A stretch of DNA of 64,000 bases, from the NCBI GenBank assembly GCA_019096065.1, contig JAGUCH010000009.1:2738001-2802000 (forward strand), given 5' to 3'. Of the stretch, positions 4,577 through 53,000 are shown piece after piece. The DNA comes from Paracyclopina nana (Eukaryota; Arthropoda; Copepoda; Cyclopoida; Cyclopettidae). The position numbers were made by a program, and so were the translations under genes. The notes under the pieces are model-generated. The model did no database searches. It saw only the letters and a program-made list of their open reading frames with translations, and was not told the DNA's origin. Position 1 is the first letter of the stretch; every line of letters starts with the position of its first letter.

Positions 4577-5621
4577 CCCAACCAGAATTTTAGTTACCGA
4601 TTCGGGTCTGAATAGTTCCCGAATTGGCAAAATGAGCTTTTCGGGTGCTTTTCATCCATGAAAACTTCTTGACTACTCGGGCACAAATCAGGAACTTAAA
4701 GGTCAATAACTTTTTAACCATTACTTTGTGTGAAAAGTTACTGATTGTTCGTGAAGTATTCAAGAGCTTTTGCTCTGTAACTTTTCAATAATGAATACTG
4801 CTTGACTATACAAGAACTATTCAGGAACTTCTATTTCAGGAACTTTTCAATAATATATACTTCTTGATAATTCAAGAACTATTCAAGAACTTTCAATCAG
4901 TAACTTTTCAATAATGGATTATGCTTGATTTTTCAAGAACTATTCAATAAGGTTCATTTAAGCAACTTTTCAACAATGAAAGCTTCTTGATAATTCAAGA
5001 ACTATTCAAGAGCTTATGTTCAGTAACTTACAAAAAACCTTTTCAATTATGAATGCTTCTTGAGCAGTCAAGAGCTATTCAGTGACTTCTGGACTTACAA
5101 AAAATTCCAAGTACTCTAAGAATTTAAGCTAGCTCCATCTAGAGCATTTTCTACACAATATTGTTGCTAAAAATAGTGCAAATTATAGTCAGACATCTGT
5201 GGTCTAGAGGCAAGGCACTGGATTTCAAATCTGAGGTTCGTGGGTTCAAATCCGCCATGGGTAAACTTTCTTTCTAGCTTTTCTAACTTTCTTTCATTCA
5301 CTTTAAATCCATCATTGTCTACAGAAAGAGAAAGCTTAAACAAAAAGCTAGAAAGCTCCCAAAAAAATTAATTTTTGGCAGGTCCTTGAATAATAACTGA
5401 AATCAAGTCCTTGAATATTAGCTGAAGTCAATTCCTGAAAAGTTGCTGAATAGTTACCAATATTTGAGAACTTAACTTGATAACTTTTAGGTAACTTTAA
5501 CAATTCTCAGCATTGATTTCCGTCACGCTATAGTTCTCTATTCGAGAGGTATTCGAGAACACAATTCTTCTCGATTAGTTCTCGAATACTTACCAAAGTT
5601 TTGTCCAAAATTCTGGTTGGG
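4577..5621. mobile_element. Putative TIR element with CCCAACCA termini
   Basis: The left end reads CCCAACCAGAATTTTAG and the right end reads AAAATTCTGGTTGGG, an inverted pair. The first half contains about five degenerate repeats of 60-75 bp built around 'caagaactattcaagaact'. A tRNA-like sequence lies at 5192-5262. No transposase ORF is visible, so the element is non-autonomous. The element at 23637-25575 has the same CCCAACCA terminus. No convincing target-site duplication is visible. Confidence 0.5.
5192..5262 (+). repeat. tRNA-like sequence (pseudo-tRNA or SINE head)
   Basis: A B-box (GGTTCAAATCC) and an A-box-like stretch (GTGGTCTAGAGGCAAGG) are correctly spaced around an anticodon-like hairpin. 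The hairpin loop TTTCAAA would put UCA in the anticodon position. The acceptor stem pairs poorly, so this is more likely a tRNA-derived repeat head than a working tRNA. It lies inside the CCCAACCA element. Confidence 0.4.
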
Positions 5622-32480: not shown

Positions 32481-32499
32481 ATCCTTGCGCACCCTCTTT

Positions 32500-33790
32500 T
32501 AAGCGCATTTATACCGGCTGGTCAGGAAAAAACTTTTTTCTTGCTAAAATACTTGTCCTCATGTGCTCAGGGGGTCAATGACCTGTTTAAATTCTCGCGC
32601 GCCCTCATTTCAGTGCTTTAATGCCGGCCCGCCAGGAAAAAACTTTTTTCTTGCCAAATTACTTGTCCTCATGTGCTCAGGGGGTCAATGACCTGTTTAA
32701 ATTCTCGCGCGCCCTCATTTCAGCGCTTTAATGCCGGCCTGCCAGGAAAAAACTTTTTTCTAGCCAAATTTCTTGTCCTCATGTGCTCAGGGGGTCAATG
32801 ACCTGTTTAAATTCTCGCGCGCCCTCATTTCAGCGCTTTAATGCCGGCCCGCCAGGAAAAAACTTTTTTCTTGCCAAATTACTTGTCCTCATGTGCTCAG
32901 GGGGTCAATGACCTGTTTAAATTCTCGCGCGCCCTCATTTCAGTGCTTTAATGCCGGCCCGCCAGGAAAAAACTTTTTTCTTGCCAAATTACTTGTCCTC
33001 ATGTGCTCAGGGGGTCAATGACCTGTTTAAATTCTCGCGCGCCCTCATTTCAGCGCTTTAATGCCGGCCTGCCAGGAAAAAACTTTTTTCTAGCCAAATT
33101 TCTTGTCCTCATGTGCTCAGGGGGTCAATGACCTGTTTAAATTCTCGCGCGCCCTCATTTCAGCGCTTTAATGCCGGCCCGCCAGGAAAAAACTTTTTTC
33201 TTGCCAAATTACTTGTCCTCATGTGCTCAGGGGGTCAATGACCTGTTTAAATTCTCGCGCGCCCTCATTTCAGCGCTTTAATGCCGGCCTGCCAGGAAAA
33301 AACTTTTTTCTAGCCAAATTACTTGTCCTCATGTGCTCAGGGGGTCAATGACCTGTTTAAATTCTCTGGCGGGGTCAATGACCTGTTTAAATTCTCGCGC
33401 GCCCTCATTTCAGCGCTTTAATGCCGGCCCGCCAGGAAAAATCTTTTTTCTAGCCAAATTTCTTGTCCTCATGTGCTCAGGGGGTTAATGACCTGATTTA
33501 ATTCTCCGGCGGGGTCAATGACCTGTTTAAATTCTCGCGCGCCTTCTATTCAGCTCTTTCATGCCAGCCCGCCAGGAAAAAACTTTTTTCTAGCCAAATT
33601 TCTTGTCCTCAGGTGCTCAGGGGGTCAATGACCTGTTTGAATTCTCGCGCGCCCTCATTTAAGCGCTTATATACTGGCCTGCCAGAAAAACTTTTTTCTT
33701 GCTACAAAACTTGTCCTCATGTGCTCAGGGGGTCAATGACCTGTTAAAATTATCATGCGCCCTCACAAAAGCGATTAAATGCCAGCCAAT
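32500..33790 (+). repeat. Tandem array 1, left arm, 110-bp unit
   Basis: About eleven copies. Clean copies start (at 'acctgtttaa') at 32581, 32691, 32801, 32911 and so on, spaced 110 bp. Units contain TTCTCGCGCGCCC, GCCGGCC(C/T)GCCAGG and CTCAGGGGGTCAATG. Near 33360-33540 the array is irregular, with partial 30-bp insert units. The GC-rich CGCGCG and GGCCGG segments contrast with the AT-rich surroundings. Confidence 0.9.
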
Positions 33791-33829
33791 CTGTTTTGAG
33801 AAGCGTCAGTTGCTTACTACTAAGCTTTT

Positions 33830-35695
33830 CAATTTTTCTTGCTTCAAATTAACAGCTGTCATTGAATTTTTGACTCACAATTGACCAAGTCATGAATTTT
33901 GCGCATTCTTAGCAGTTATGGAGTAGCATAATGCGATGTGCAAGTTTTCGCATTTGTAAATTCAAAATGAGTCAAAAGTTTGACTTTGCCTCACATTATG
34001 AGTCAAGTTGCCTCAAATAAACAGCTGTCATTGAATTGTTGACTCACAATTGGCCAAGTCAAGAATTTTGCGCATTCTTAGCAGTTATGGAGTAGCATAA
34101 TGCGATGTGCAAGTTTTCGCATTTGTAAATTCAAAATGAGTCAAAAGTTTGACTTTGCCTCACATTATGAGTCAAGTTGCCTCAAATAAACAGCTGTCAT
34201 TGAATTGTTGACTCACAATTGGCCAAGTCAAGAATTTCGCGCATTCTTAGCAGTTATGGAGCAGCATAATGCGATGCGCAAGTTTTCGCATTTATAAATT
34301 CAAAATAAAACAAAAGTTTGACTTTGCCTCACATTATGAGTCAAGTTGCCTCAAATTAACAGCTGTCATTGAATTTTTGACTCACAATTGACCAAGTCAA
34401 GAATTTCGCGCATTCTTAGCAGTTATGGAGCAGCATAATGCGATGCGCAAGTTTTCGCAATTGCAAATTCAAAATGAGTCAAAAGTTTGACTTTGCCTCA
34501 CATTATGAGTCAAGTTGCCTCAAATAAACAGCTGTCATTGAATTTTTGACTCACAATTGACCGAGTCAAGAATTTCGCGCATTCTTAGCATTTATGGAGT
34601 AGTAGAACGCGATGTGCAAGTTTTTGCATTTGCGAATTCAAAATGAGGCAAAAGTTTGACTTTGCCTCACATTATGAGTCAAGTTGCCTCAAATTAACAG
34701 CTGTCATTGAATTTTTGACTCACAATTGACCGAGTCAAGAATTTCGCGCATTCTTAGCATTTATGGAGTAGTAGAACGCGATGTGCAAGTTTTTGCATTT
34801 GCGAATTCAAAATGAGGCAAAAGTTTGACTTTGCCTCACATTATGAGTCAAGTTGCCTCAAATTAACAGCTGTCATTGAATTTTTGACTCACAATTGGCC
34901 AAGTCAAGAATTTCGCACATTCTTAGCATTTATGGAGTAGTAGAACGCGATGTGCAAGTTTTTGCATTTGCGAATTCAAAATGAGGCAAAAGTTTGACTT
35001 TGCCTCACATTATGAGTCAAGTTGCCTCAAATAAACAGCTGTCATTGAATTTTTGACTCACAATTGACCGAGTCAAGAATTTCGCGCATTCTTAGCATTT
35101 ATGGAGTAGTAGAACGCGATGTGCAAGTTTTTGCATTTGCGAATTCAAAATGAGGCAAAAGTTTGACTTTGCCTCACATTATGAGTCAAGTTGCCTCAAA
35201 TTAACAGCTGTCATTGAATTTTTGACTCACAATTGACCGAGTCAAGAATTTCGCGCATTCTTAGCATTTATGGAGTAGTAGAACGCGATGTGCAAGTTTT
35301 TGCATTTGCGAATTCAAAATGAGGCAAAAGTTTGACTTTGCCTCACATTATGAGTCAAGTTGCCTCAAATAAACAGCTGTCATTGAATTGTTGACTCACA
35401 ATTGGCCAAGTCAAGAATTTCGCACATTCTTAGCAGTTATGGAGTAGTATAACGCGATGCGCAAGTTTCAAATTGCAATTGCAATTCAAAATGAGTCAAA
35501 ACTATGGCTTAGTCTTTCGCAAGTTTTGTATTGTCACGCTATTTAAATAGCTCATAGCATAAAATGTATTTAAATAGCCTCTGAACGTACTTAAATAGCT
35601 GCTATTTAAATACGTTTTATGTTATGAGCTATTTTTAAAAATCGCGTGACTCTACAAAGCTTGCGAAAGACTAAGCCTATGAGTCAAGTTGCCCA
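33830..35695 (+). repeat. Tandem array 2, about 169-bp unit
   Basis: About ten copies, each with AACAGCTGTCATTGAATT, GACTCACAATTG, GCATTCTTAGCA and TTTGACTTTGCCTCACATTATGAGTC. Two sequence variants alternate: one has 'gagtagcataatgcg', the other 'gagtagtagaacgcg'. The last copy is interrupted by a nested MITE and resumes after it. Confidence 0.9.
35506..35677. mobile_element. MITE nested in tandem array 2, 3-bp TAT duplication
   Basis: Ends GGCTTAGTCTTTCGCAAG and CTTGCGAAAGACTAAGCC are exact inverted copies. The interior has several TATTTAAATA motifs that extend the palindrome. TAT flanks both sides (35503-35505 and 35678-35680), and the host repeat resumes directly after it. This fixes the order of events: array first, MITE later. 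Confidence 0.9.
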
Positions 35696-36735
35696 AGACC
35701 AGACTAGTCTCCCAGTGCAAAAACTAACTGAAACTAGCATATTTTTTGGCAACTTTTTTGAACTGGGAGCGAAACTCGCGTAACGTGAGTAATTACTGGA
35801 GCAAAATTGTATTTTTTGACAAAGGCCAAAATTAAGCCTTTGCTTCACCTAGTTCTACCAGACTAGTCTCCCAGTGCAAAAACTAACTGAAACTAGCATA
35901 TTTTTTGGCAACTTTTTTGAGCTGGGAGCGAAACTCGCGTAACGTGAGTAATTACTGGAGCAAAATTGCATTTTTTGACAAAGGCCAAAATTAAGCCTTT
36001 GCTTCACCTAGTTTTGACCAGACTAGTCTCCCAGTGCAAAAACTAACTGAAACTAGCATATTTTTTGGCAACTTTTTTGAACTGGGAGCGAAACTCGCGT
36101 AACGTATTACTTACTGGAGCAAAATTGCATTTTTTGACAAAGGCCAAAATTAAGCCTTTGCTTCACCTAGTTCTACCAGACTAGTCTCCCAGTGCAAAAA
36201 CTAACTGAAACTAGCATATTTTTTGGCAACTTTTTTGAGCTGGGAGCGAAACTCGCGTAACGTGAGTAATTACTGGAGCAAAATTGCATTTTTTGACAAA
36301 GGCCAAAATTAAGCCTTTGCTTCACCTAGTTTTGACCAGACTAGTCTCCCAGTGCAAAAACTAACTGAAACTAGCATATTTTTTGGCAACTTTTTTGAAC
36401 TGGGAGCGAAACTCACGTAACGTATTACTTACTGGAGCAAAATTGCATTTTTTGACAAAGGCCAAAATTAAGCCTTTGCTTCACCTAGTTCTATCAGACT
36501 AGTCTCCCAGTGCAAAAACTAACTGAAACTAGCATATTTTTTGGCAACTTTTTTGAGCTGGGAGCGAAACTCGCGTAACGTGAGTAATTACTGGAGCAAA
36601 ATTGCATTTTTTGACAAAGGCCAAAATTAAGCCTTTGCTTCACCTAGTTTTGACCAGACTAGTCTCCCAGTGCAAAAACTAACTGAAACTAGCATATTTT
36701 TTGGCAACTTTTTTGAACTGGGAGCGAAACTTGAA
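35696..36735 (+). repeat. Tandem array 3, about 160-bp unit
   Basis: Six and a half copies of a unit starting ACCAGACTAGTCTCCCAGTG and containing GAACTGGGAGCGAAACTCGC and CTTTGCTTCACCTAGTT. Two alternating variants (GTGAGTAATTACTGG and GTATTACTTACTGG) suggest amplification as a dimer. It ends abruptly at the right-arm array. Confidence 0.9.
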
Positions 36736-36737
36736 TA

Positions 36738-38085
36738 AAGGTCATTGACCCCCTGAGCACATGAGGTTAAGAAATTTGGCTAGAAAAAAGTTTTTTCCTG
36801 GCGGGCCGGCATTAAAGCGCTGAACAGAGGGCGCGCGAGAATTTAAACAGGTCATTGACCCCCTGAGCACATGAGGACAAGAAATCTGGCAAGAAAAAAG
36901 TTTTTTCCTGGTGGGCCGGCATTAAAGCGCTAAATAGAGGGCGCGCGAGAATTTAAACAGGTCATTGACCACGCGCGAGAATTTAAACAGGTCATTGACC
37001 CCCTGAGCACATGAGGACAAGAAATTTGGCAAGAAAAAAGTTTTTTCCTGGTGGGCCGGCATTAAAGCGCTAAATAGAGGGCGCGCGAGAATTTAAACAG
37101 GTCATTGACCACGCGCGAGAATTTAAACAGGTCATTGACCCCCTGAGCACATGAGGACAAGAAATTTGGCAAGAAAAAAGTTTTTTCCTGGTGGGCCGGC
37201 ATTAAAGCGCTAAATAGAGGGCGCGCGAGAATTTAAACAGGTCATTGACCCCCTGAGCACATGAGGACAAGAAATTTGGCTAGAAAAAAGTTTTTTCCTG
37301 GCGGGCCGGCATTATAGCGCTAAATAGAGGGCACGCGAGAATTTAAACAGGTCATTGACCACGCGCGAGAATTTTAACAGGTCATTGACCCCCTGAGCAC
37401 ATGAGGACAAGAAATTTGCTTAGAAAAAAGATTTTTCCTGGCGGGCCGGCATTAAAGCGCTAAATAGAGGGCGCGCGAGAATTTAAACAGGTCATTGACC
37501 ACGCGCGAGAATTTAAACAGGTCATTGACCCCCTGAGCACATGAGGACAAGAAATTTGGCAAGAAAAAAGTTTTTTCCTGGTGGGCCGGCATTAAAGCGC
37601 TAAATAGAGGGCGCGCGAGAATTTAAACAGGTCATTGACCCCCTGAGCACATGAGGACAAGAAATTTGGCTAGAAAAAAGTTTTTTCCTGGCGGGCCGGC
37701 ATTATAGCGCTAAATAGAGGGCACGCGAGAATTTAAACAGGTCATTGACCACGCGCGAGAATTTTAACAGGTCATTGACCCCCTGAGCACATGAGGACAA
37801 GAAATTTGCTTAGAAAAAAGATTTTTCCTGGCGGGCCGGCATTAAAGCGCTGAATAGAGGGCGCGCGAGAATTTAAACAGGTCATTGACCCCGCCGGAGA
37901 ATTAAATCAGTTCATTGACCCCCTGAGCACATGAGGACAAGTAATTTGGCTAGAAAAAAGTTTTTTCCTGGCGGGCCGGCATTAAAGCGCTGAATAGAGG
38001 GCGCGCGAGAATTTAAACAGGTCATTGACCCCGCGCGAGAATTTTAGCAGATCATTGACCCCCTGAGCACATGAGGACAAGAAAT
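36738..38085 (-). repeat. Tandem array 1, right arm, inverted
   Basis: Reverse-complement copies of the left-arm 110-bp unit, about nine, often with an extra 30-bp CACGCGCGAGAATTTAAACAGGT block, which gives a longer period. The innermost units of the last nuclease exon read into this array. The stop codon of the nuclease frame is in the first repeat. Confidence 0.9.
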
Positions 38086-39748
38086 TTGGGGTTGGGAGCA
38101 TAGCTTTTTTGGGTGAGCTGATTTTGGTGATTGTGTGCATTCAATAAGCTGGTCAAGGCGCGCGATCTGAGCTTTTTGTTGCACTTGCCTAGCTTGGTAG
38201 CGGGCGAGCCAATTTCGGGGATTCTGTGCGCTGGATATCTGGCCACTGCCCATATCATGTTGCCTTTGCTTTCATCTCCAAGATCCCAATCAACGCTGAA
38301 AATATCCCTCCTCAATTACATTGACCCGATTAATGAAGCACTAGAAAATTACCCAATGATGGAGGAGCAAATTGAGCTGCAGAAAGCATTCTCAGCTGTG
38401 ATGTCATCGGAATGAGGGTCATTGAGGCCAACAAAGGCCACCACCTCTTCAGTGGCCTCATTTTGAAGCACTTTCCAAATATACTTGGGCACTGGAATGT
38501 ACCTGTGGTCATCCTTGATGTACAAATAAATTGGCACTTGATTGCCATTCACATCGGGATATGTCAACACCTCGTGAGTGCCAGTCCAAACAGTGACGTT
38601 ACCAGATCTGCCAAAAAAGCCTTAATTTGTAGTATTCTTTTGACTGGGGCGAGTAAATTGCTATTTTACATTGAGGCGTAGTGCCTGGCAGCATATTCCA
38701 GGTACTTCCAATTTCCATTGTTGAAAGACTGGAATTGGGGAGCCACATTGAAAAAGAAGTAGGTGGCATCTTGTTCGGATCCTTCGATGAAATCTGCATC
38801 AGGGCTCAAGTGTCCTTTGGCACAATAATTCGTGCCACTTGTGGAGGTTTCAATCAGTGGAGTGCCGTCAGGAAGCATATTATTGTTCCCCAACAAAGTT
38901 GCTATGACTTCAGCTTGGCTATTTTTGGAATACGCACTGAAAATGCAAATTGAAATGTAAGGAAGTCCAATACAGCTGAAATACATACTCGTCGATGTAT
39001 TTGGCATAATCAAAGGTGAAAAATCTCTTGTAGCCTCGATTGTCAGTTCTGAAAGAAGGTCTGCCAGGAGTGTCATCATTGAAATCAATTACATCTCCCA
39101 GAATTCTGTGCTTTGTCCATAAAGTGTTGTAGTTGTTTTCATCGATACAAGCAAGTATTTGCTCTTGGAAGCCAAGCCCGAAATTCCAGCCAATTCTAAC
39201 CAACACGATGCCATTGTTGGCTGCCTCAGAGGTGCTTTCCAATCCCTGGTCACAATTGGAGTTTTCCTCTCTTATGATTTCTGGCTCCATCACTCTGGTA
39301 CAAGTGGCAGCATAAATACTTCCCTTGGATACGACAGCTGTGTCGTAGTACATTTCTCCTCCATTGCAGGTTAAATCCAATTTTGGAACATTGACTGAAG
39401 ATATTCCTAGGCTGGCCATGGATAATCTATTGAATCTTTCTTCAGTTCCATGGCAAAACAAGGACAAAATCTCTCCATCAGCTTAAATTTTTAGGAAAGG
39501 TTAAAAACGTAACATACTATAAGATAAAATTTACCGAGCTGTAGAACTCTTCCATTGATAGGTCTAGCAATTACGCCATCTTTCAGCATGAAAGGCACAT
39601 ACTTTCCATTTCTTTCATCCAGATCAATTTCACAACCAAAAGCTACAGAGAATGTTTGACGCAAGAAATGTATTCAAATGATTATATTTAATTTACCAAA
39701 TTGAAGAGAAGCTAAAATACCGAAAATAATAGGTATAAAGGCCAACAT
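38052..39748 (-). CDS. Secreted DNA/RNA non-specific endonuclease (crustacean DSN-like), 472 aa
   Basis: Six exons on the minus strand, 39748-39697, 39642-39535, 39481-38989, 38936-38670, 38607-38353 and 38295-38052, close in frame with GT/AG borders. The first exon encodes a signal peptide. The core has CAKGHLSPDADF, the family's (D/E)RGH active-site motif with its catalytic His. FNVAPQFQSFNNGNW follows, including the Mg-binding Asn region, then a conserved IPVPKYIWKVL segment. This is the Endonuclease_NS fold, and the layout matches arthropod secreted nucleases that digest double-stranded DNA, for example in digestive glands. The residue before GH is Lys instead of Arg. The last exon ends inside the adjacent tandem repeat, so the final 30 or so residues look repeat-derived. 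Confidence 0.85.
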
Positions 39749-41029: not shown

Positions 41030-44000
41030 GCATATAGCATAAATACGAATGTCATCAGCAAGCCTTTCATCATTCCTAATAGAAGAAAAATGCTGACCAG
41101 ACCTGATCACCTCGTCAACCCAATCTTTGCTCTTATAGCAAGCTGCACAGTCATTTCAAACTTTGCTAGCTTGTACTTCACAATTTTCAAGCTCAAAGTC
41201 CACAAATATGTAAAGTATGTCCTGATTTGGGGCATTGCCAACAGTTGTGCAGGATCTGTGGTAGTCCTAGCTGGATACTGCACCATGGTCTTCAGCCCTG
41301 AGTACGTTTTAGAGGCCTGCGCGATGAACTCGATTCCATTGATGCAGTGCATGAATGGGGGTCATGTCATGACATCTATCATGGGAGCCATCAGGTACCA
41401 TATGGCGAAAAACACAGCTACATCCACACGAATCAACCACAGAAGCATAATTTGGGGAAGCATCGTGGTCACCTCAGCTCATGAGTTGCTCTTTGTTGGT
41501 GAGAAATCCATATTTGAAAACGAATCGATTTTCAAGTGACACCCAATTTGTCAACGAAAAAGCCTTTGTGGGAATTTTTTCATTTAGATTTTAATCAGCC
41601 TTGACTGCCCACAACACAAATACTATCGTCAGAACTAACACTGAAGTACGTTCTGTTTTTGAAATCATCAATTAAATCCACAATTACTTCACGGTTACTT
41701 TTGCATTGGCAAGAAAATATTATGACAATACTTGAGGTATTTTGACGTAGTATGTTGTGAGTAATGTACGTACACAGATCAGAAAATTAGAAAACATCAC
41801 TCAAGGGACAATAGGGCGTATTCCCGTACTGACCTGTCAGTCAAGTTAAGTTAGGTAAAAAGTTAAGTTTAGTTCAGTTCCGTTGCCAGATATTTATGTA
41901 GGTAGAACTTGACTTAGCTTAATTCTATATGTAGCACTAGCTTGCTTGCTTGCCTAGCTAAGTTAAGTTGGCCCACTGAACTAAGCTGCAAAAAGTGTTC
42001 TCATATGCGTAGTAACTGAACATGGCTAAAACGAGCCGAACTTGGCTAGAACAAGCTGAACTTAACTGATCCAGTAAGGTTGCCGTTTCAGCAAGGTAAC
42101 TAGACTAAAAATTCGAATGTGTTTGCCTCCCGGCGAGGTTATGTGACTCTATCTGGCTGGACTCATTTTCGATCCCTTATGTTTTGTTTACTTTAGTACT
42201 TTATCGGATTTTATGCATGGCGGTCGTCAAAATAAACGATCTGACCCAAAGATCCCTTTAGAGTGCTCTTTTATTCGTGCGACGTTTATTTTTATCAGTT
42301 CATCGAGTCGAGATTACAGTGATCAGATTTACATGGCGACCAACGTTATCAGTTCCACACCGTGAGAGATCAAGAGTCAAGCTTACCGAGGGAGCCGGCG
42401 GCCATTGCAGTCAGCTGTTGCTGGCTGACGATGTAAAGGAGTTTACGAACGAGAGGACTAAGCCTTGTCCCACGAAACGCAAACGAGGGGACAGTGAATC
42501 GGATGTCAAAGGACACTACCAAGAAGTACGGCCTCAGACACAATCCGATAAGGAATGTGAGGTTGACATCGGGAGAGTATGAACACGAACTTCACGAAGC
42601 CAGGACCGCGAAAACAGTATCGAGTCGAGCGGATGAGGTCGAGGCTGCGAGGTCAGAGGAGGCCAACAGACGGATTGCCGAGTTCAAAAAGAGAGTCTCA
42701 AGTGATAAGTCAGTGTGTTTGTCAGGACACCCAGACACAATTGAGGGGACAAACACCCAGTTAGACACTGCGGGGACCGAATGGGATCTCCGCTATAGTG
42801 ACTCGACGTTGCTTGGTGACACGACAAACAACGTGCACATGATGACTGTCGAACCGAATAACATGGCTCCGTGGAAGGAGGCTTGGGCAGGAACCAGAGC
42901 CGGCCTAGAAAGTGACATGACAAAGCTCGAAGACAGTTTGACGGCTGCAACAAGAGCAGGAGCAGTGGAGTGTGTGCGAAATGGCCTCAGTAACCTCATA
43001 GAAACACTTAAGAGTGACGCGGTGGTGCTGGAGTCGCTGGTGGGTCAGAGTGACAGGGAAGAGTTCGCAACGGAGATGAGAGCCATGAACAAGAGGCTGG
43101 TAGTGCTAGTGATGAAAGCCAGCACGAAAGCAAGGAACATCATGGTCGCGGGCGTATCGACAGAGGCAGAGACTTTAGTTGTCGCTGCCTCTGAAAACGC
43201 TCCCAAGCAGCAAAACCACGACACCCAAGCCACCCAAGCGCAACCGGGGGAGTCCGAGGATGCGGAGGAGTCAGAGGTGGAAAAATGCATCACGCTGAAT
43301 GGTGAGTTCTTTTCGCTAGTCTCACAATTGAAAAGCGCGGATAGGGAACTCAGAAAAATGAGGGCCGGTTCGATGGAAGCAGTGCGGCAGGCAAGCATGA
43401 TGAGAGAGGTCAACAGGAGAAGAGTGGAAGTGGGAGAAGAACTGCTCAAGATGCCGGACAACGCTGACTTTCCAATCAACAAGCAGTGCATCGTGATTGG
43501 AAACAAAGAAGCTGAAAACATTGCGCGAAGCATGCCAGCACAAAGAGAAGAGAACGACCAGGAGGCCGCCCCACGGCCAACCAGAGGCCGCGAGGACAAC
43601 ATTGAAGAGAGAGGGCGCTACACTGGTGCAGGAGAAGAAAAAACTCTGCAGCTGGGGGTCCCAGCAGTCCACCTCACGGAAGAAAAGTACAAAGAAAAGC
43701 TGGCAAAAGAAGAAGAGTTTCTGGATCAACACACGGTGATCGAACAAGTCAGAAGAAGAAAAACCACAGATGTTTGTTGGGCAGACATCATGCAGAGGAA
43801 AAACCTCCACAGATTCTATGACCCAAGCCTGCCAAAGGACTCAAACTCAAGAGAGGATGTTAAGCCGATGTTCTTCGATGGAGCGAACACAGGAGCATAC
43901 AAGGACTTCAAAGAATATGTCCATGCGGCAATCATCATGAAAAAGAACTTGAGCTGGTTCGAAAAGATATCCAAACTCAAGTACTTGTGCACAGGAGGAG

Positions 44001-47000
44001 CAAAGTTCGCAGTGAGAAGGTGTACGCTGGACTTTGAAGGCCTAGTCAGCGCACTGGAAAATCTGGATGGCACATATTTAGGACATCCAGGAGAAGCTGA
44101 CGAAATGGTGCATGACCTCTCAGCTCAGTTGATCAAAATGGTGCGGATAAGCATGAAGAGTCTAGCAACATTGGAAGCTACGCTAGCTCTAGTCGAGGAA
44201 ATTATTGACTGCAATGGGCGAGCAGGAAAGGACGCCTTAGATGGAGAGCAGTCAATCCTGAGCAACATCCAATTCGAGGTTGGAGCCAGGAGAGATTACG
44301 AGAGGTTCAAAGAACAAAAAATGCAATCTCGAAACTCCTTGAGACTTTTTATCACGTGGGCCAGGACAAGAATAAGGGAAATCCAGAGAAGCAGAAAAGT
44401 ATGCACGGTGGTAGAAGACATCAACAAGATGCACGACAGAAATTATCATCGAGGAACAGGCCAAGCCTACAGATATGTTCCACAGATCCAAGCAGCCGAA
44501 CCCCCACAGCCAACCAGGGGCTACAGGGGAGGAGGCTTCAGAGGCCGAGCCAGGAGGCCTTTCTATGGAGGCAGAAGAGAGCAATCGTACTTCGCGTGGG
44601 GAGCAGCTTACCCCTCGAGATATGATGACCCCGATGATCAGGACTATTGGTGGGATGAAGAACAACGATGGCAAGGTTGCGAGAATGAGGTGGTTGCTCA
44701 TTGCGAAGATCAGGGAGGCGATTGGTATGATTTTGGCTATCAAGACCAAGATGAAGAATGCGTCAACTTCGTCAATGGGAAAACGATCTGCCTGTTATGC
44801 AAGAAGCCAGGGCACAGGTGTAGCGACTGTCCAGAATGGAATCTGTTCAAGTTGCAAGATATCATCAAAGTCATTGACGAAGCAAAAATTTGCCCCCGGT
44901 GCTTGCAGGGCAAACACAAACTTAACGATTGCAAAAGACAATTAACCTGCGGTGTGTGCGGATCAGCAAGCCACCACACAAAGATCCATAGGCAGAAACC
45001 GAAGCCAGAAGAGGCGACGAAGAGCGTGGAAGACAAAGAAAATGTAAAAGAGCTGCTAGCATCAATGACGAAGCTTATGACGAAGCTGTCAGAAACTACA
45101 CTCCTAAGTCAGGACCTTGGTTGTGCTGACGAAGGAGAACAAGCTAAGGATGTGATTTTGCTGGCAGCCCAAGCAACACGATCGTGGCTCACTGTGCCAG
45201 TGGAGGTAGCAAGCGACCTCTCGTTTGAAAAATCAGTGACAACGAACGCGCTCATCGATGCAGGATCGAGTGCAACATTATTGAAGCCCAGCTTAGCGAA
45301 ACAAATGGGATTCAAGGGCAAAAGAAAGCAGCTGACAGTGCAAGTCGTGGGAGACAAGTCCATCACACAACCATCGCAAGAAGGCAAAATATACATCAGA
45401 GCGAAAGACAGGAGCGGAGAAGTATACGAACTAAAGTTCAACACCTTCGAGCTACCGGTGTCGATCAAACCTGTCGATCCGAACACAGTCAAGAAGGATC
45501 ACAGTGAGCTGAGAGAAATTGAGTTCCCGGTGCCAGAGGAAGGTGGAGTGGGTCTTCTAGTTGGATTCAACAACACCGTCCTAATGAGCAGTGAGAGAGA
45601 CATCGTGGTGAAAGATGGACCTCTAGCAAGAAAAACGCCCCTGGGGTGGTCAATACTCAACTACCCAGGAGTGGGAGATAGCGAAGTTGCTTGCTTGGTT
45701 GACGACTGGAAGCTGTTCAATCAGTCATCAATGACAGAGTCAGAGTTCAGGTACATGCTCGATAGACAGTATGGCCTGGAGTCAATCGGAATTGACCGGA
45801 AGGAAGAGCCAGTCCAAAGACTCAACCTAGCAGAAGAGATAGCCTTGGTGAAAATGAAATCAACAATGAGACTACTGCCATCAGGGCACGTAGAAGTGGC
45901 CATACCATTTATCAAGGAGATCCCAGATTTGCCAGAAAACTTCTTGCAGTGTGCAGCGATCCAGAGAAGCCTAGACAAGAGACACGAAGCCGATCCAGGA
46001 GTCATGGAAGCAATTGGCTCAACATTTCAAGAGTACCTGAGACTTGGCATAATAGAACCTGTGCCGAAGCATGAACTAGGGAAAGGATATTTTCTCCCAG
46101 TGTTCTGCGTGGCTAGACACACAAGCGAGACAACAAAATACAGGTTTGTGTACAATGCTAAGCAGAAGTTCAACGGGACGTCGATAAATGAGCAGATGTA
46201 CACCGGCCCAAATTATCTAGAAGACATCTTCGATACCATGCTTCAATTCCGCGTGGGAGACGTAGCTGTTGTAGCCGACATTGAGAAAATGTACTTAATG
46301 ATTGCGCTGCCGGAGAAAGATAGAAAGAACGTCAGAGTGTTAATCCAAGGGCAGCAGTATCAGTTCTGCAGGTGGCCCTTTGGACTCAGAGCAGCCCCGT
46401 CAGTGGCAAATTTCGTGGTGAAGTCACACATTAAAAACAAAGGCTCCAGACTGCTCCAGGAGACAGTCAACATCTACATGGACGATGTGATCGTGGCCTT
46501 CAAGGCCAAAGAAACCGCAAAAAAGGTCATCGAAGAATTAATACCCCTCATGAGTGAAATTGGAATGGAGCTGAGAAAGTTTGTTTCAAATGACAAAGAT
46601 GTGTTGGAAAACGTGCCGTTGGAAAGAAGGGGAAAATCGATGGTAGTGGAAGAGAACATGGAAGAAAGAATACACTCGACGCTTGGCCTTAAGTGGGACC
46701 CAGTGACAGATCGTATTGGGTACCAGCTGTCAAAACACAACCAGGGTGTAGTGACAAAGAGGATCATGGCAAGTCAGATCCCAGCAGTGTTCGACCCGTT
46801 AGGAGCCCTAGCTCCGTGCTTATTGAAGGCCAGAAAAGCGCTCCAACTGGCTCACAAAGCGGACAAAGACAAGAAAATTGCGTGGGACGACGATTTGTCA
46901 AAAGTGGATGATAAGAACGCGAAGGAGGCAGTGAAACTGTGGAAGCAGTGGCAGAACGAGTTCAATCAAATGACAGAAGTCAGCTACCCAAGAAAAGCAG

Positions 47001-50000
47001 CGAGCTCAATAGACGAGAATACAATTCTTCACATGTGCAGCGATGGGTCGGATCTTGCATTTGCGACAGTGGCATATCTGAGCCAGAGAGGTGGAGAGCC
47101 ACAACCAAGGTGGCTAACCACAAAAGCAAGAATACAAGGAGTCAGGCAAAGATCCATACCAGAAGTCGAATTAGCAGGAGCCCTGCTCAGCTCAAGACTG
47201 TCGAACAGGCTCATCAGGCTCTTCGGAATCAAGAGAGAAAATGTGTGGTACTGGGTAGACAATAAGCCAGTAATCTACTGGATAAGGAAGCCAGGAGTGG
47301 AGAGGTGCGTGTTCGTGAGAAACAGAGTGATTGAAATCGCGGACACAACACTGATGGAGCATTGGAATCATATAGCCACAGCTGAGAACTCAGCAGATCT
47401 TCCGACGAGAGGCTGCACTGGCAATCAACTCAAGGACCATAAGAACTATTGGGAAGGTCCGGAGTTCTTCAAGAAGAACCAGGATGAATGGAGTTTGACA
47501 GACATTAAAGTCATAGAGGAAGAGCTGCTTGGATCAGGTGAGATAACATTGATGTGCGAGGACCTTGGTTGTCCTGGCACTGTAGTTGTCAACCAGTTAG
47601 CAATGATCCAACCTCATGAAATACAAGATGGAGGTCAACAAGCAGTAGGCCCAAGCTACGAAGTCTTCAAACGAATGGAAAATGTCATGAGTCTGCAGAT
47701 GGCTGGAAAGTGGCCAGTGATGATCAGAGCTTTGGCAAGAATAATCGGCAGGAGCCGCGGAATGAAACTGGGCTACGTCATTCCGGATGAGCTGATGGAC
47801 ACAGCCACAACAAAAGTGCTGATATTCGGGCAGTGGCTGCAGTGGGAAAAAGAGATGCTACAGTTCGAAAAGTCTGGAAAATGGCCTACAGCGATGCAAG
47901 GAAAACACGCGCTAATGATCAGTCGGGATGGCCTAGTTAGGGTGTGCACTAGACTATACAAACAAGACTTGAAAGGATCGCAGATCAACCCAATCCTACT
48001 GGCGAACACGTGGCCGTTCGTCTTGTATGTGTGGGGAATACACCTAGCAGAAAACCACATCAGGTATGACAATTTGCTGCATAGATTATCACGAGAAGTT
48101 TCAGGGCCAGCAGTGAAGAAATTGGCCTACAAAGTGTCAAGAGAATGCAGCAAATGCAGAAGAGATCATGCCACCATGCCAAGACAGTTAATGGGAGGCA
48201 TCACAAAAGTCGACCTGAAGAATCTGAGACCATGTGCGAAGGTGGCCATTGACTATACAGGAGCACAGTGGGTTAAATTCAGAAGAAAAAGAATTCCAGT
48301 GTATGTGCTAGTTGCCGTCTGCCTGGTAACGAAAGTAGTGACATTGGAAATTACCATGGGAATGAACACAGAGGACTTGATCTTGGCCCTAACAAGAATT
48401 GCAGCCCGAAGAGGACCAATCGAAGAAGCATACTCAGACAATGGTGGTAGCTTCAAGAAAGCGACGAGATTGTTGGAAAAGGAGCAGCATGGCAAGGCTC
48501 AAGACATGGAACATGAAGTTGAGCAGATCGATTGGGAGTCAGTGCAACTCAGGACAACAAAGTTCGTTAGAAAATGGGTCATGTCACCACCAAGAGATCA
48601 TGAGGCAAATGGCCAAGTGGAAGCTTTTGTGAAGCTGGCAAAGAAAGCCATCCAAGACCACAATGATCGAGGAGAAGTGGATCTTGAAATCTACAGAACG
48701 TGGGTAGCTCAGGCCGAAAACGTGGTCAATTCGAGGCCAATCGCAGTAATATGACAAAATGACGACGAAAAACTAGTCTTAACACCCAACCACCTTCTAG
48801 TTGGGAGGTTGGGAGACACAGGCATATTCTCAACAGACCACGAACTAGATTTCAATGTGCACGAACTAGCACAAAGAATGGCGAAATTTGAGAAGAGCTG
48901 GTGCGACTATTTTATGCAAAGCATGCATGACAGGTCAAAGTTTAGAACCAAATATGAAAGAAGATTGACAGAGGGAGACTTGGTTGTGGTGGCCGAGGAA
49001 GACCTCAATGTGAAAAGATTCAAGTGGAGAATAGCGAAGATTTTAAAGGTGAAAAAAAGCACGGATGGCTTGGTGAGACGTGTAGTAGTGCAACAAGGAA
49101 AAAACATTTTCGAAAGAAGTATAAGGGATATCGTCCCCATTGGAGGATTCCCGCACATTCAGTTGAACTAATAATGGAGAAGAAAAACAAAAGTTGCACC
49201 AATCTCACCAGACGACCAAGAAGCTACACCACACAAACCTACACCACACGAATCAAGTCAAAAAGAAGTAAAGACACTTTTAAAAGAAGACGACAAACGC
49301 GCCAGAAAATGTCTGGTAGCGCTGTGAGCAGTGACGAGCGGCTGAGAAACGACTCAGCAAACACGACGAAGAAAAACCCGCGCGCGGCACATTTTCCGTC
49401 AAATCACAACAGTGAAAATCGCGAACCGATCGAAGTGAAAAAAATGGCGGAGCGCGACGGCAGTGAACGAAAGAGGCAAAGAATCACGGGTCCTGACAGC
49501 TCCCCGAGCCCTGGTTGCTCGAGGGAGCGAGAGGACAAAGACGAGCTCCGAATCACGATCGCAAACACGGGAGAAGAACCAAGTGAGCAAAGGCCAACTC
49601 ATGGAGCAGCAGCATTCACATCAGAGCGGCAAACGGATCAGGCGGCTGAGATCATGAGAGTCACGGGCTTCAGGAGACTGCACTGGTACACAAACAACGA
49701 TGTTAGTCGAAGAGAGGCATTTTTCGGAGCCGCGAAGGACCCAGAAGCGCTGATCATTGGAGATCAATACAATTGGGGAGAAAAAATGCCGGATGACGAT
49801 CGCCCCTCGGAGAGAAGAAGGAAACTTCGACGAATGGACTTGTGGCGCGCCTACAGGGCACTACTCTGCCGATCCAGAGGAATGACGCTCTTAGAGACGT
49901 ATATGTTTGCATATGGTAATCAATTTCTAGATATTTTGAGACTGCAGAACGACAACAAGGACCCGGAGCTGGAGGAGTTGCCGGACAAGGCCACGATGGT

Positions 50001-53000
50001 TCGCAGTTGGATGGCAGCGAGAGCACTTGGCAATTACATCGCTGGATCAGTGGATGACGCAACATGGGAAAAAGGCGTGTTCCAAGCGATGGAGGCTGGA
50101 ATGGGAATGCATGTCGCCCCCAAGATGCACAAGCTGTACAAGGAGGGTGACATCGCAGACATCATCATGATTGATCAAGTGAGGACCACGCTGTCGATCG
50201 AAGAAATGAAGCAGCTGTCAGTTTTCAAGAAGCTGCCAATTGTGACCAGAGAGCACAACGATCAGTTTGTCAAGGCTCTCAAGGACACACTGGAGGCGAT
50301 CAATGGCCCACCATTCAGGTGCTCAATGAGAGTAGTCCATCACCGAAGAAGTCAAGTGGTCGAGAGCGAAATGGATGTCACGACACGATTTGGAGCAATG
50401 GGCGAAGCTTTAAAGGGGCGAGACCCTGGTTGTCTTGCTCCTAGTAAAGCAGAGCCAGTAGTGGACGTCGCCAGGCGGGTAGTGGAATATGAAGAGCCCA
50501 TGGAGGTGGTCAATGTGGAAACGGCAACGACAGCCACTCAAACTGATCATCAAGAACCTGAGCGACCAACTCCATCGACGAGCAGGAAGACTCCAATCGT
50601 GATCCCGGCTGGCATGGAGGATGAAATCATGGAAGACTTCAGAGGCTCGCAACTCAAGGATGTGTCAGGCCTGAGAACTTCAGCCACTCCGATGGACGAC
50701 GACGAGGAGTACCTTCGTAAATATGCTTCAAAATTTGACTGCCCTGAATTAGTTGCAGGCAAGGTTTATGATATGACTAGCGACCAGGCCAGAGCTTGTA
50801 ATCACGTGGCATGTGCAATTCGAAAGGAATTCGAATTGGGAGAGACGATTGACAAGTCAATGACAGTGGCCCTGGTTGCCACTGTCAAGGAGGCCAAAAA
50901 ATTGGCATCAATGGCGAAAGGCACTCCTTATGACCTGGAGTCGCCGGACCTCCACTCAGTCTACATCCTTGGCCTCACCAAGAAAGAAAACGCGTACTCA
51001 GCCAACTCCTTCGAAGAGCTTGAGTTTTTTCTCGAGGGCGAGGGCTTTTTTCGATCTATTGAGAAGGGCAAAGTGATGACGATAGACTGCGAGGGCTTTC
51101 ACCACGCCACCAAAGTTGCTTACGCAAAGAAGTATCCACCGACCGTCGACGAGTTCAATTACATGACCTCGTATGTGCACATGGGAGCGCCCAATGGCAT
51201 TGCGTTTGGAACAAGAGTGGGATATGTAGGCCCAAAATTTATTGGCAGACGGCTCCCAAAGAGGATCGTGGACCTGTTGGAGTCGCCCAAGATCTTCAAG
51301 TTGGGTTTTGGCGTTGAGGGAGACCTCAAGCGATTCAGATTGATGGGCATCAATGTTAGATCGTGGGTCGACGTGGGGCACATCATCAAGCTATTGGACC
51401 CATCAGCGAACGTCGGCAAAGAAGCATTGCTGAAGCTGCTACGAGTTCAGCATTCTGTGCGATTCCCCAAGTGGGCCAGAGAAGACCCGTACGCAGGCTT
51501 CGTTGACGAGTATGCGAAGACCACGATCTACTACGACAGGATTGATCAATTCGCGCCCCTAGCGGCCCTGTTCAAGGCCGCCAGCATCGTTGCAGAGCAT
51601 GAGAACTTGACCGACAACGACAACATGTACCCGTATGCATTGGCTTTACTGGCCTTATTCGTGGACATCCCGCTGCAGTTTGGTTCTCAACCCAGGATTG
51701 AATTCGAGGGCCTGCTGTGTCACCCCACGCTCCCCTTGCAAGTACTGCGAGCTGAGTCAAAGTTGTTCAACTCTTGGGAGTCCATCGTCAAGAAGTTTAA
51801 GGAGCTGGAACTGCTCTGGCCAATATCTAGGGCCTTCTTTTGGCATTTGTCCAACTCAGCTATTCAGCTTCTAGAGAGCGACCTGGAAGTGTCCCTGGTT
51901 GACCTTCACAGGGCCGCTGTCATTGATGGAGCTGTTGGCAGGGTCACGACTACCACCAAGAAGGACAGGAAGATGGCAAAATATCCGCATGCATGCGTGA
52001 CTTGCGGCGACTTTGATCACGACTCAGCAGACTGCCTTGAGCTGCCGTCCTGTCATTTGCCTTTTTGTGGTCGCGACGGCCACTCCTCCAAAGTATGCCC
52101 TCAAGTGTTAGAAGTCTGTCAAGTTTGCGGCGGCCGTGGCCACAACAGAGGCCACCACCAGGACTCGGACCTTGTCCAGCTCTTCGCAGCAGAGAGAGTA
52201 GCCCCGTTCGTGCATGTGATGGCTGTGCGCCAGATGGACAGACATGGCAAAATCTTAGTGATTCATCGATATGGCGCTACCAAGCCCCTACGCAAGTAGC
52301 CTCGATCCACCCGATAGATTCCCAGAGGGGACTGTTTGCCTCCCGGCGAGGTTATGTGACTCTATCTGGCTGGACTCATTTTCGATCCCTTATGTTTTGT
52401 TTACTTTAGTACTTTATCGGATTTTATGCATGGCGGTCGTCAAAATAAACGATCTGACCCAAAGATCCCTTTAGAGTGCTCTTTTATTCGTGCGACGTTT
52501 ATTTTTATCAGTTCATCGAGTCGAGATTACAGTGATCAGATTTACAGAATGCAGGATCGCCCTATAAGTTTCAATTTGATGATGGGCCGCAACTCTCAAG
52601 ATTTAGGCGATCTCACTGAAAATGACAGACTTAATTGATGCACTTTCTTTAAAAGGAGTGTGGATACTGACGCTTTCGACAGACACATACTGGGAGCTTG
52701 GAACAGTACACTGCATGAATAAGGCCTACTTCAATATGGTCACAGCAGTACCCATCCTTGAGGCCATGGCATTCATCATCATCACCTTTGTCTGTGATGC
52801 TGCCATGATCAGGTTCATAAGGAATCGTTCCAGAGTGGCGCCAGTCCAAATGTCAGTCTGGTCCACAAATGAATCCAGCAGAGAAGAGGGGAATACTTTC
52901 AGGTCTCACAATGACGTACTCAAAGCTACAATCCCTGTTCAATCAACCATCCTACTCACTACTTTCACCGTCATTTGCTCAGCTTTGAGTGCCTACCTCC

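Follow-up and report, generated by a model that had tools for sequence, protein, structure and literature searches.

A third gene with a predicted DEDDy 3'-5' exonuclease in a BEL/Pao retrotransposon clade of the copepod Paracyclopina nana

We analysed a 64,000-nt stretch of the Paracyclopina nana genome (assembly GCA_019096065.1, contig JAGUCH010000009.1, positions 2,738,001-2,802,000, forward strand), which we call the window and whose coordinates are used below. It contains a complete long terminal repeat (LTR) retrotransposon of the BEL/Pao type at 42120-52546, with an additional open reading frame, ORF3, downstream of pol. The reading we consider probable is that ORF3 belongs to a clade of BEL/Pao elements carrying a DEDDy 3'-5' exonuclease of the EXD2/WRN type with three zinc knuckles as its third gene, and that the predicted enzyme is active and acts in cis on the 3' ends of the element. 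Conservation across a family of ORF3 copies and linkage of that family to one pol clade carry the argument.

Conservation of ORF3 and its linkage to one pol clade

The features of the element and of ORF3 are listed below by coordinates, strand and content. Exo I to Exo III denote the three exonuclease motifs.

42115..42119, no strand: left target-site duplication GAATG, read from the sequence
42120..42333, plus strand: 5' LTR, 214 nt, identical to the 3' LTR
42334..42350, plus strand: likely primer-binding site, TGGCGACCAACG..., abutting the LTR; the motif with its TGGC start is common to diverged members
42503..48754, plus strand: ORF1, fused gag-pol, 2083 residues, closing with an in-frame TGA within integrase
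48755..49171, plus strand: remainder of pol (integrase tail) in the ORF1 frame; PF18701 (DUF5641), E = 1.1e-14; own TAA at 49169-49171
49174..52299, plus strand: ORF3, 1041 residues, uninterrupted, in the -1 frame relative to pol
50944..51723, plus strand: predicted exonuclease domain (DEDDy, 3'-5'), spanning residues 591-850; across 25 members 33 of its 260 columns do not vary; PF01612 in 17 of 24 members
51085..51093, plus strand: Exo I, D638-C-E640; both acidic residues invariant (25/25)
51322..51324, plus strand: Exo II, D717; invariant (25/25); in alignments it coincides with the Exo II Asp in both EXD2 and a bacterial DEDDy profile
51532..51546, plus strand: Exo III, Y787-D-R-I-D791; Y787, D788, R789 and D791 invariant; aligned with Y-A-A-N-D of a host EXD2-like protein
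51994..52158, plus strand: three zinc knuckles spanning residues 941-995; none of the 12 ligands varies among the 25 members
52333..52546, plus strand: 3' LTR, 214 nt, identical to the 5' LTR
52547..52551, no strand: right target-site duplication GAATG, read from the sequence

An earlier note on this DNA had read a DEDDy exonuclease and two or more zinc knuckles from the single copy in the window. The five catalytic residues sit where it placed them, and we counted three knuckles (C-x2-C-x4-H-x4-C from residue 941, C-x4-C-x4-H-x4-C from 960 and C-x2-C-x4-H-x4-H from 982). By themselves the motifs are weak evidence for an exonuclease. The set D-x-E...D...Y-x3-D at such spacings arose in 447 of 20,000 shuffles of the domain and in 469 of 3,000 shuffles of the whole ORF. 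This doubt over chance motifs is removed by the conservation of the residues across the family. A search of the host assembly (92 Mb, one genome), in which 44 of 233 candidates were scored so that the count is a lower bound, returned at least 53 ORF3 matches with identities of 23-100%, some loci holding several. We fetched 28 loci and aligned the 25 with an uninterrupted frame of more than 600 residues; L020 was dropped for inner stops, and L026 and L029 for short frames. Although identity to the window ORF3 falls to about 26% among these intact members, none of the 25 shows a change at D638, E640, D717, Y787, D788 or D791, or at any of the 12 knuckle ligands. The chance that the five catalytic positions would all fall within 33 random invariant columns of 260 is 2.5e-5. 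By region, invariant columns number 33 of 260 in the exonuclease, 14 of 57 in the knuckles, one in residues 1-155 and none of 275 in residues 156-430. Residues 431-590 (50464-50943), just before the exonuclease, hold eight invariant columns and no known domain.

Profile searches with the family gave a consistent assignment. PF01612 matched 17 of 24 members at E values up to 1 (best 1.1e-5; L019 was omitted because it is nearly the same as L018). When ten members were scanned singly, nine matched, one of them above the cut-off. A genome-wide PF01612 scan gave nine matches, two of which are ORF3 loci over the cut-off. The family profile found five matches in the PDB at E values up to 10, and all five are DEDDy enzymes (WRN, EXD2 and a diDNase ancestor; best E = 0.018). 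The DEDDy assignment made in the earlier note, including Exo III, is thus borne out by the invariant residues, by PF01612 and by a host EXD2-like match described below.

The family is confined to one group of pol genes among those listed. With the reverse transcriptase (RT)/A17 part of pol as query, the host genome yielded at least 84 pol matches, with both the pol and ORF3 lists being lower bounds and split fragments counted separately. Those listed comprise 41 at 50% identity or more and 43 at 31-35%. Of the pols at 50% identity or more, 41 of 41 are followed by an ORF3 match on their own strand, no more than 14 kb downstream, versus none of the 43 at 31-35%, and every listed ORF3 match has a pol of at least 50% identity upstream. 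The gap between pol and ORF3 is 1.1-3.4 kb in 37 of the 41 pairs and 6.4-10 kb in four; these four wide gaps may reflect nesting, breakage or neighbouring copies. This linkage, together with the conserved family, indicates that ORF3 is a clade-specific BEL/Pao gene.

Architecture, insertion and expression of the element

The assignment to BEL/Pao rests on a pol with A17 and RT domains, an LTR pair with a short target duplication, and an integrase with a DUF5641 C-terminal region. ORF1 matches Peptidase_A17 (2.7e-26), in agreement with the earlier note's description of ORF3 as an uninterrupted frame following a BEL/Pao pol, and RVT_1 (7.4e-10). The protease match is below the Pfam cut-off, as is the integrase core (PF00665, rve; 2.1e-5), which is located before the TGA at 48752-48754. 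The DUF5641 tail was scanned separately from ORF1. Three gag knuckles lie at residues 763-829 of ORF1, and PF05380 is listed for all 53 protein relatives of pol. The integrase TGA is not a feature of the clade, because uninterrupted pol frames of approximately 2150-2300 residues are common among the other members.

The earlier note had described the ORF as very recently functional or selected. The LTRs are indeed identical and ORF3 is intact, but because pol of the window copy is interrupted in integrase, the description rests on these two features. Flanking repeats were present around all of ten close and ten diverged members. Among the close members, seven LTR pairs showed no mismatch or gap; of the remaining three, one had a single mismatch, another 13 gap positions and the third 3 mismatches across a partial LTR. 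A 5-bp target duplication was found in nine of the ten. Among the diverged members, six LTR pairs were 100% identical, and the rest were 99.7, 99.1, 98.3 and 97.7% identical, the 99.1% pair being that of L035, which has another copy next to it. Since the LTR pairs are identical or nearly so in both groups, several distinct families have inserted recently. L035 and its neighbour (L057, L058; G000 C9:5656965-5674321) are on the same strand about 10.7 kb apart, and the LTR repeats between them abut or nearly do, as in a head-to-tail tandem.

A TGGC..CCAAC start directly after the 5' LTR is common to the window element and the diverged members L022-L024, L027, L032, L036 and L040, so that a single kind of transfer RNA (tRNA) primer may be used. 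This start may correspond to a tRNA-Lys end.

ORF3 starts 2 nt past the TAA of the pol tail. Its codons resemble ORF1 usage in frame (0.16 bits per codon, versus -0.28 to -0.70 in the five other frames). A slippery heptamer, A_AAA_AAC at 49099 in the zero frame of the pol tail, was considered as a route to frameshift expression and rejected, as it gained no support from resampling, folding or the frames of the family. Synonymous resampling of the overlap produced A_AAA_AAC in 15% of cases and any slippery site in 31%, and the fold downstream does not stand out (z = -1.71; matched by 13 of 200 shuffles). The end of pol was recognisable by eye at 15 loci; of these, ten have ORF3 in the +1 frame and five in the -1 frame, a variation that speaks against a fixed fusion. 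A common splice acceptor was likewise rejected: 10 of the 25 members have acceptor-like sites in the 200 nt preceding the first ATG, with no distance in common.

ORF3 lacks an envelope signature, as the earlier note had stated. The best 19-residue hydropathy mean is 1.46 and there is no R-x-K/R-R site, though five N-x-S/T sequons occur. We also considered whether the knuckles were copied from gag, using a gag-knuckle profile built from 17 of the 53 BEL relatives. The ORF3 tail scored better than 1000 of 1000 full shuffles, yet 95 of 1000 shuffles with Cys and His fixed scored equally, and the idea was dropped.

Elsewhere in the window, 32481-38089 holds large tandem arrays with units of 110/140, 169 and 159 nt, in which the 110/140-nt type flanks the others in opposite orientation. 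A tRNA-like sequence at 5193-5263 (plus strand) scores 29.4 in Rfam against a gathering threshold of 29 and is not called by ARAGORN. A weak match to a DNA/RNA non-specific endonuclease at 38922-39482 (minus strand; PF01223, E = 0.0028) and a partial match to an Srw-like chemoreceptor are both below cut-off.

Relatives of the exonuclease domain

The family profile was compared with the six other PF01612 loci of the host. An EXD2-like locus, L084, scored best (21.3 bits), higher than WRN (18.9 bits), and MUT-7 scored low (3.0 bits). In the L084 alignment, Exo II and the invariant Y-x3-D of ORF3 fall on the Exo II and Y-A-A-N-D of L084 (19.6 bits), and L084 itself matches EXD2 in the PDB at 1.2e-19. 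In a BLASTP search of the small set of host PF01612 proteins the ten top rows were all L084, and the window domain matched it at 8.9e-8 (24% identity across 185 residues). When the search was repeated with 0.01 as the cut-off, 3 of the 24 members were retained. These comparisons place the ORF3 domain nearer to EXD2/WRN than to MUT-7.

Viewed from the window copy alone, the case for an exonuclease is suggestive only. The best PDB match of its domain is EXD2 (E = 0.19), and a WRN homolog from mouse also appears (E = 1.3); these are two of eight weak matches, and the other six look unrelated. The sole phage match is DNA polymerase I (E = 0.04). With a bacterial DEDDy profile, HMMER aligns the D638/E640 pair to the profile's D-x-E and D717 to its D, and none of 2,000 shuffles reached the real score. 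Profiles of the Exo II-III region, with and without bacteria, were each reached by none of 5,000 shuffles, with the score resting on Exo II. Further profiles of 19 rows without EXD2 and WRN, of 22 rows and of 7 eukaryotic rows also gave 0/5000; profile tests that contain EXD2 and WRN are partly circular, because both were added after the query had matched them. Exo III could not be confidently placed from the single copy. In scans with a 25-residue Exo III block, Y787 ranked 5th and Y780 28th among 1,017 windows, both with negative scores. A degenerate Exo III at Y780/T784, taken from the single-copy alignment, was rejected because Y787 and D791 are invariant and T784 varies in the family.

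Several observations weigh against an exonuclease of the EXD2/WRN type. The Pfam check that the earlier note had proposed succeeded for the family, but the window's own domain has no Pfam match, and the matches of the other members end before Exo III (at profile positions up to 117 of 173). A 4-row eukaryotic profile without EXD2 and WRN fails to detect the domain, with 143 of 5,000 shuffles scoring equally. Exo I aligns with L084 only in a sub-significant piece (-2.1 bits), and comparing profile with profile gave a weak result for RNase D-type sequences of bacteria (probability 13%, P = 0.0022).

On the supporting side, the ratio of nonsynonymous to synonymous substitution rates (dN/dS) across copies, another check proposed earlier, is 0.071-0.091 over ORF3 in the three unsaturated pairs, those with a synonymous divergence (dS) below 1.6, and is indicative only because L018/L019 (dS 0.083) is the sole truly close pair. 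On these values ORF3 is apparently under purifying selection.

We compared ORF3 with known exonucleases of mobile elements. Juno and Vesta of bdelloid rotifers are retrovirus-like LTR elements of other, Ty3/gypsy-like clades. In the 2017 paper that describes them, an RNase D-like DEDDy exonuclease ORF3 replaces env, a Cys-His-Cys zinc motif is present in Vesta2 and Vesta5, and the gene was gained at least twice, with no significant departure from neutrality and unclear benefit (PMC5408684). DEDDy ORF3s in LTR elements are thus a known kind, and the earlier note's impression that no BEL/Pao lineage with this arrangement had been described stands within our literature searches. Compared by description only, the rotifer enzymes have DEED where the elements described here have an intact DEDD with the Tyr, three knuckles and restriction to one BEL/Pao clade. 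Other element classes carry DEDDy exonucleases as well: the Athena/Terminon Penelope-like elements (PMC6431247) and the Dada DNA transposons of Laccaria and Ectocarpus, where the domain is placed inside the transposase (PMC3706591).

Among cellular enzymes, EXD2 and WRN are the best PDB relatives, whereas ORF3 is element-borne and diverged from host L084. MUT-7, Nibbler and EXD3 share with ORF3 a layout of N-terminal region, DEDDy domain and C-terminal zinc module (PMC11347159). ORF3 differs in having knuckles instead of a Cys4 finger, and no MUT7-C match was found for it in Pfam at E values up to 1.

Relatives of ORF3 or its exonuclease were not found in a protein database (where only near relatives were reachable), viral contigs or GTDB contigs; these negatives say little on other animals, because the collections are not animal genomes. 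The 53 pol relatives list no PF01612, although a separate ORF3 would not show in pol proteins. Literature searches, judged by title and with partial term matching of BEL/Pao, found no BEL/Pao exonuclease, and the word "exonuclease" is absent from the main text of a large BEL/Pao survey (PMC3118150). Within these searches, what looks new is the BEL/Pao clade, the intact DEDD with Tyr, the set of three knuckles and the close association with a single pol clade.

Possible functions and significance

We propose that ORF3 encodes an active 3'-5' exonuclease that depends on metal and is produced apart from Gag-Pol. Nucleic acid would be held beside the nuclease by the knuckles and possibly also by the N-terminal region, in a layout like that of MUT-7. 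Our working model is MUT-7, in which the flanking domains contribute to RNA binding (PMC11347159). The enzyme would act in cis, within the ribonucleoprotein, on the 3' ends of the element's own RNA or complementary DNA (cDNA). The gene was probably gained a single time, ahead of the clade's radiation, and its source would be either a cellular EXD2-like gene or another mobile element.

An alternative that we regard as rather unlikely is counter-defence, in which the exonuclease would act in trans on host silencing intermediates, for example small RNAs or tailed 3' ends of element RNA from which small-RNA amplification starts, or would compete with a host MUT-7-type nuclease. The DEDDy enzymes MUT-7 and Nibbler act in small-RNA pathways (PMC11347159), and a MUT-7-like role has also been raised for the rotifer ORF3s (PMC5408684); the ORF3 domain, however, is nearer EXD2/WRN than MUT-7. 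Against a form that promotes silencing, the authors of PMC5408684 note that self-limiting elements would be out-competed. DEDDy enzymes include the proofreading domains of DNA polymerases, and phage DNA polymerase I and WRN are among the weak matches of the window domain. A role in cDNA proofreading or end trimming, with mismatched or surplus 3' nucleotides removed in the course of reverse transcription or afterwards, nevertheless seems improbable to us, as the shared element is all that links ORF3 to the RT.

It is very unlikely that ORF3 encodes an inactive, nuclease-derived fold that binds nucleic acid in the manner of EXD1 and Maelstrom, which are described as inactive derivatives in PMC5408684. 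A plain alignment of the window copy did set T784 at the Exo III Asp, but T784 varies while the five catalytic residues are invariant in 25 of 25 members. The earlier note had also raised a host gene fragment present in one copy. The motif set does occur in about 2% of domain shuffles, but the genome holds at least 53 matches, all those listed lying downstream of a BEL pol match, and we give almost no credence to a fragment or a chance motif in a single copy.

A wider interpretation of the in cis exonuclease is held only tentatively. An old BEL/Pao clade may have acquired its EXD2-type exonuclease in an event separate from those in the rotifer elements, and may now depend on its own nuclease for 3'-end processing or proofreading, or for disarming RNA silencing. 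If true, unrelated LTR elements would have converged on the same gene in the same position, a sign that the life cycles of some LTR elements may require a 3' exonuclease in a way not yet recognised. The ORF3 clade and the 43 distant BEL pol matches in one genome offer a natural comparison, through small RNAs, cDNA ends and substitution spectra, on why a retroelement needs a 3' exonuclease.

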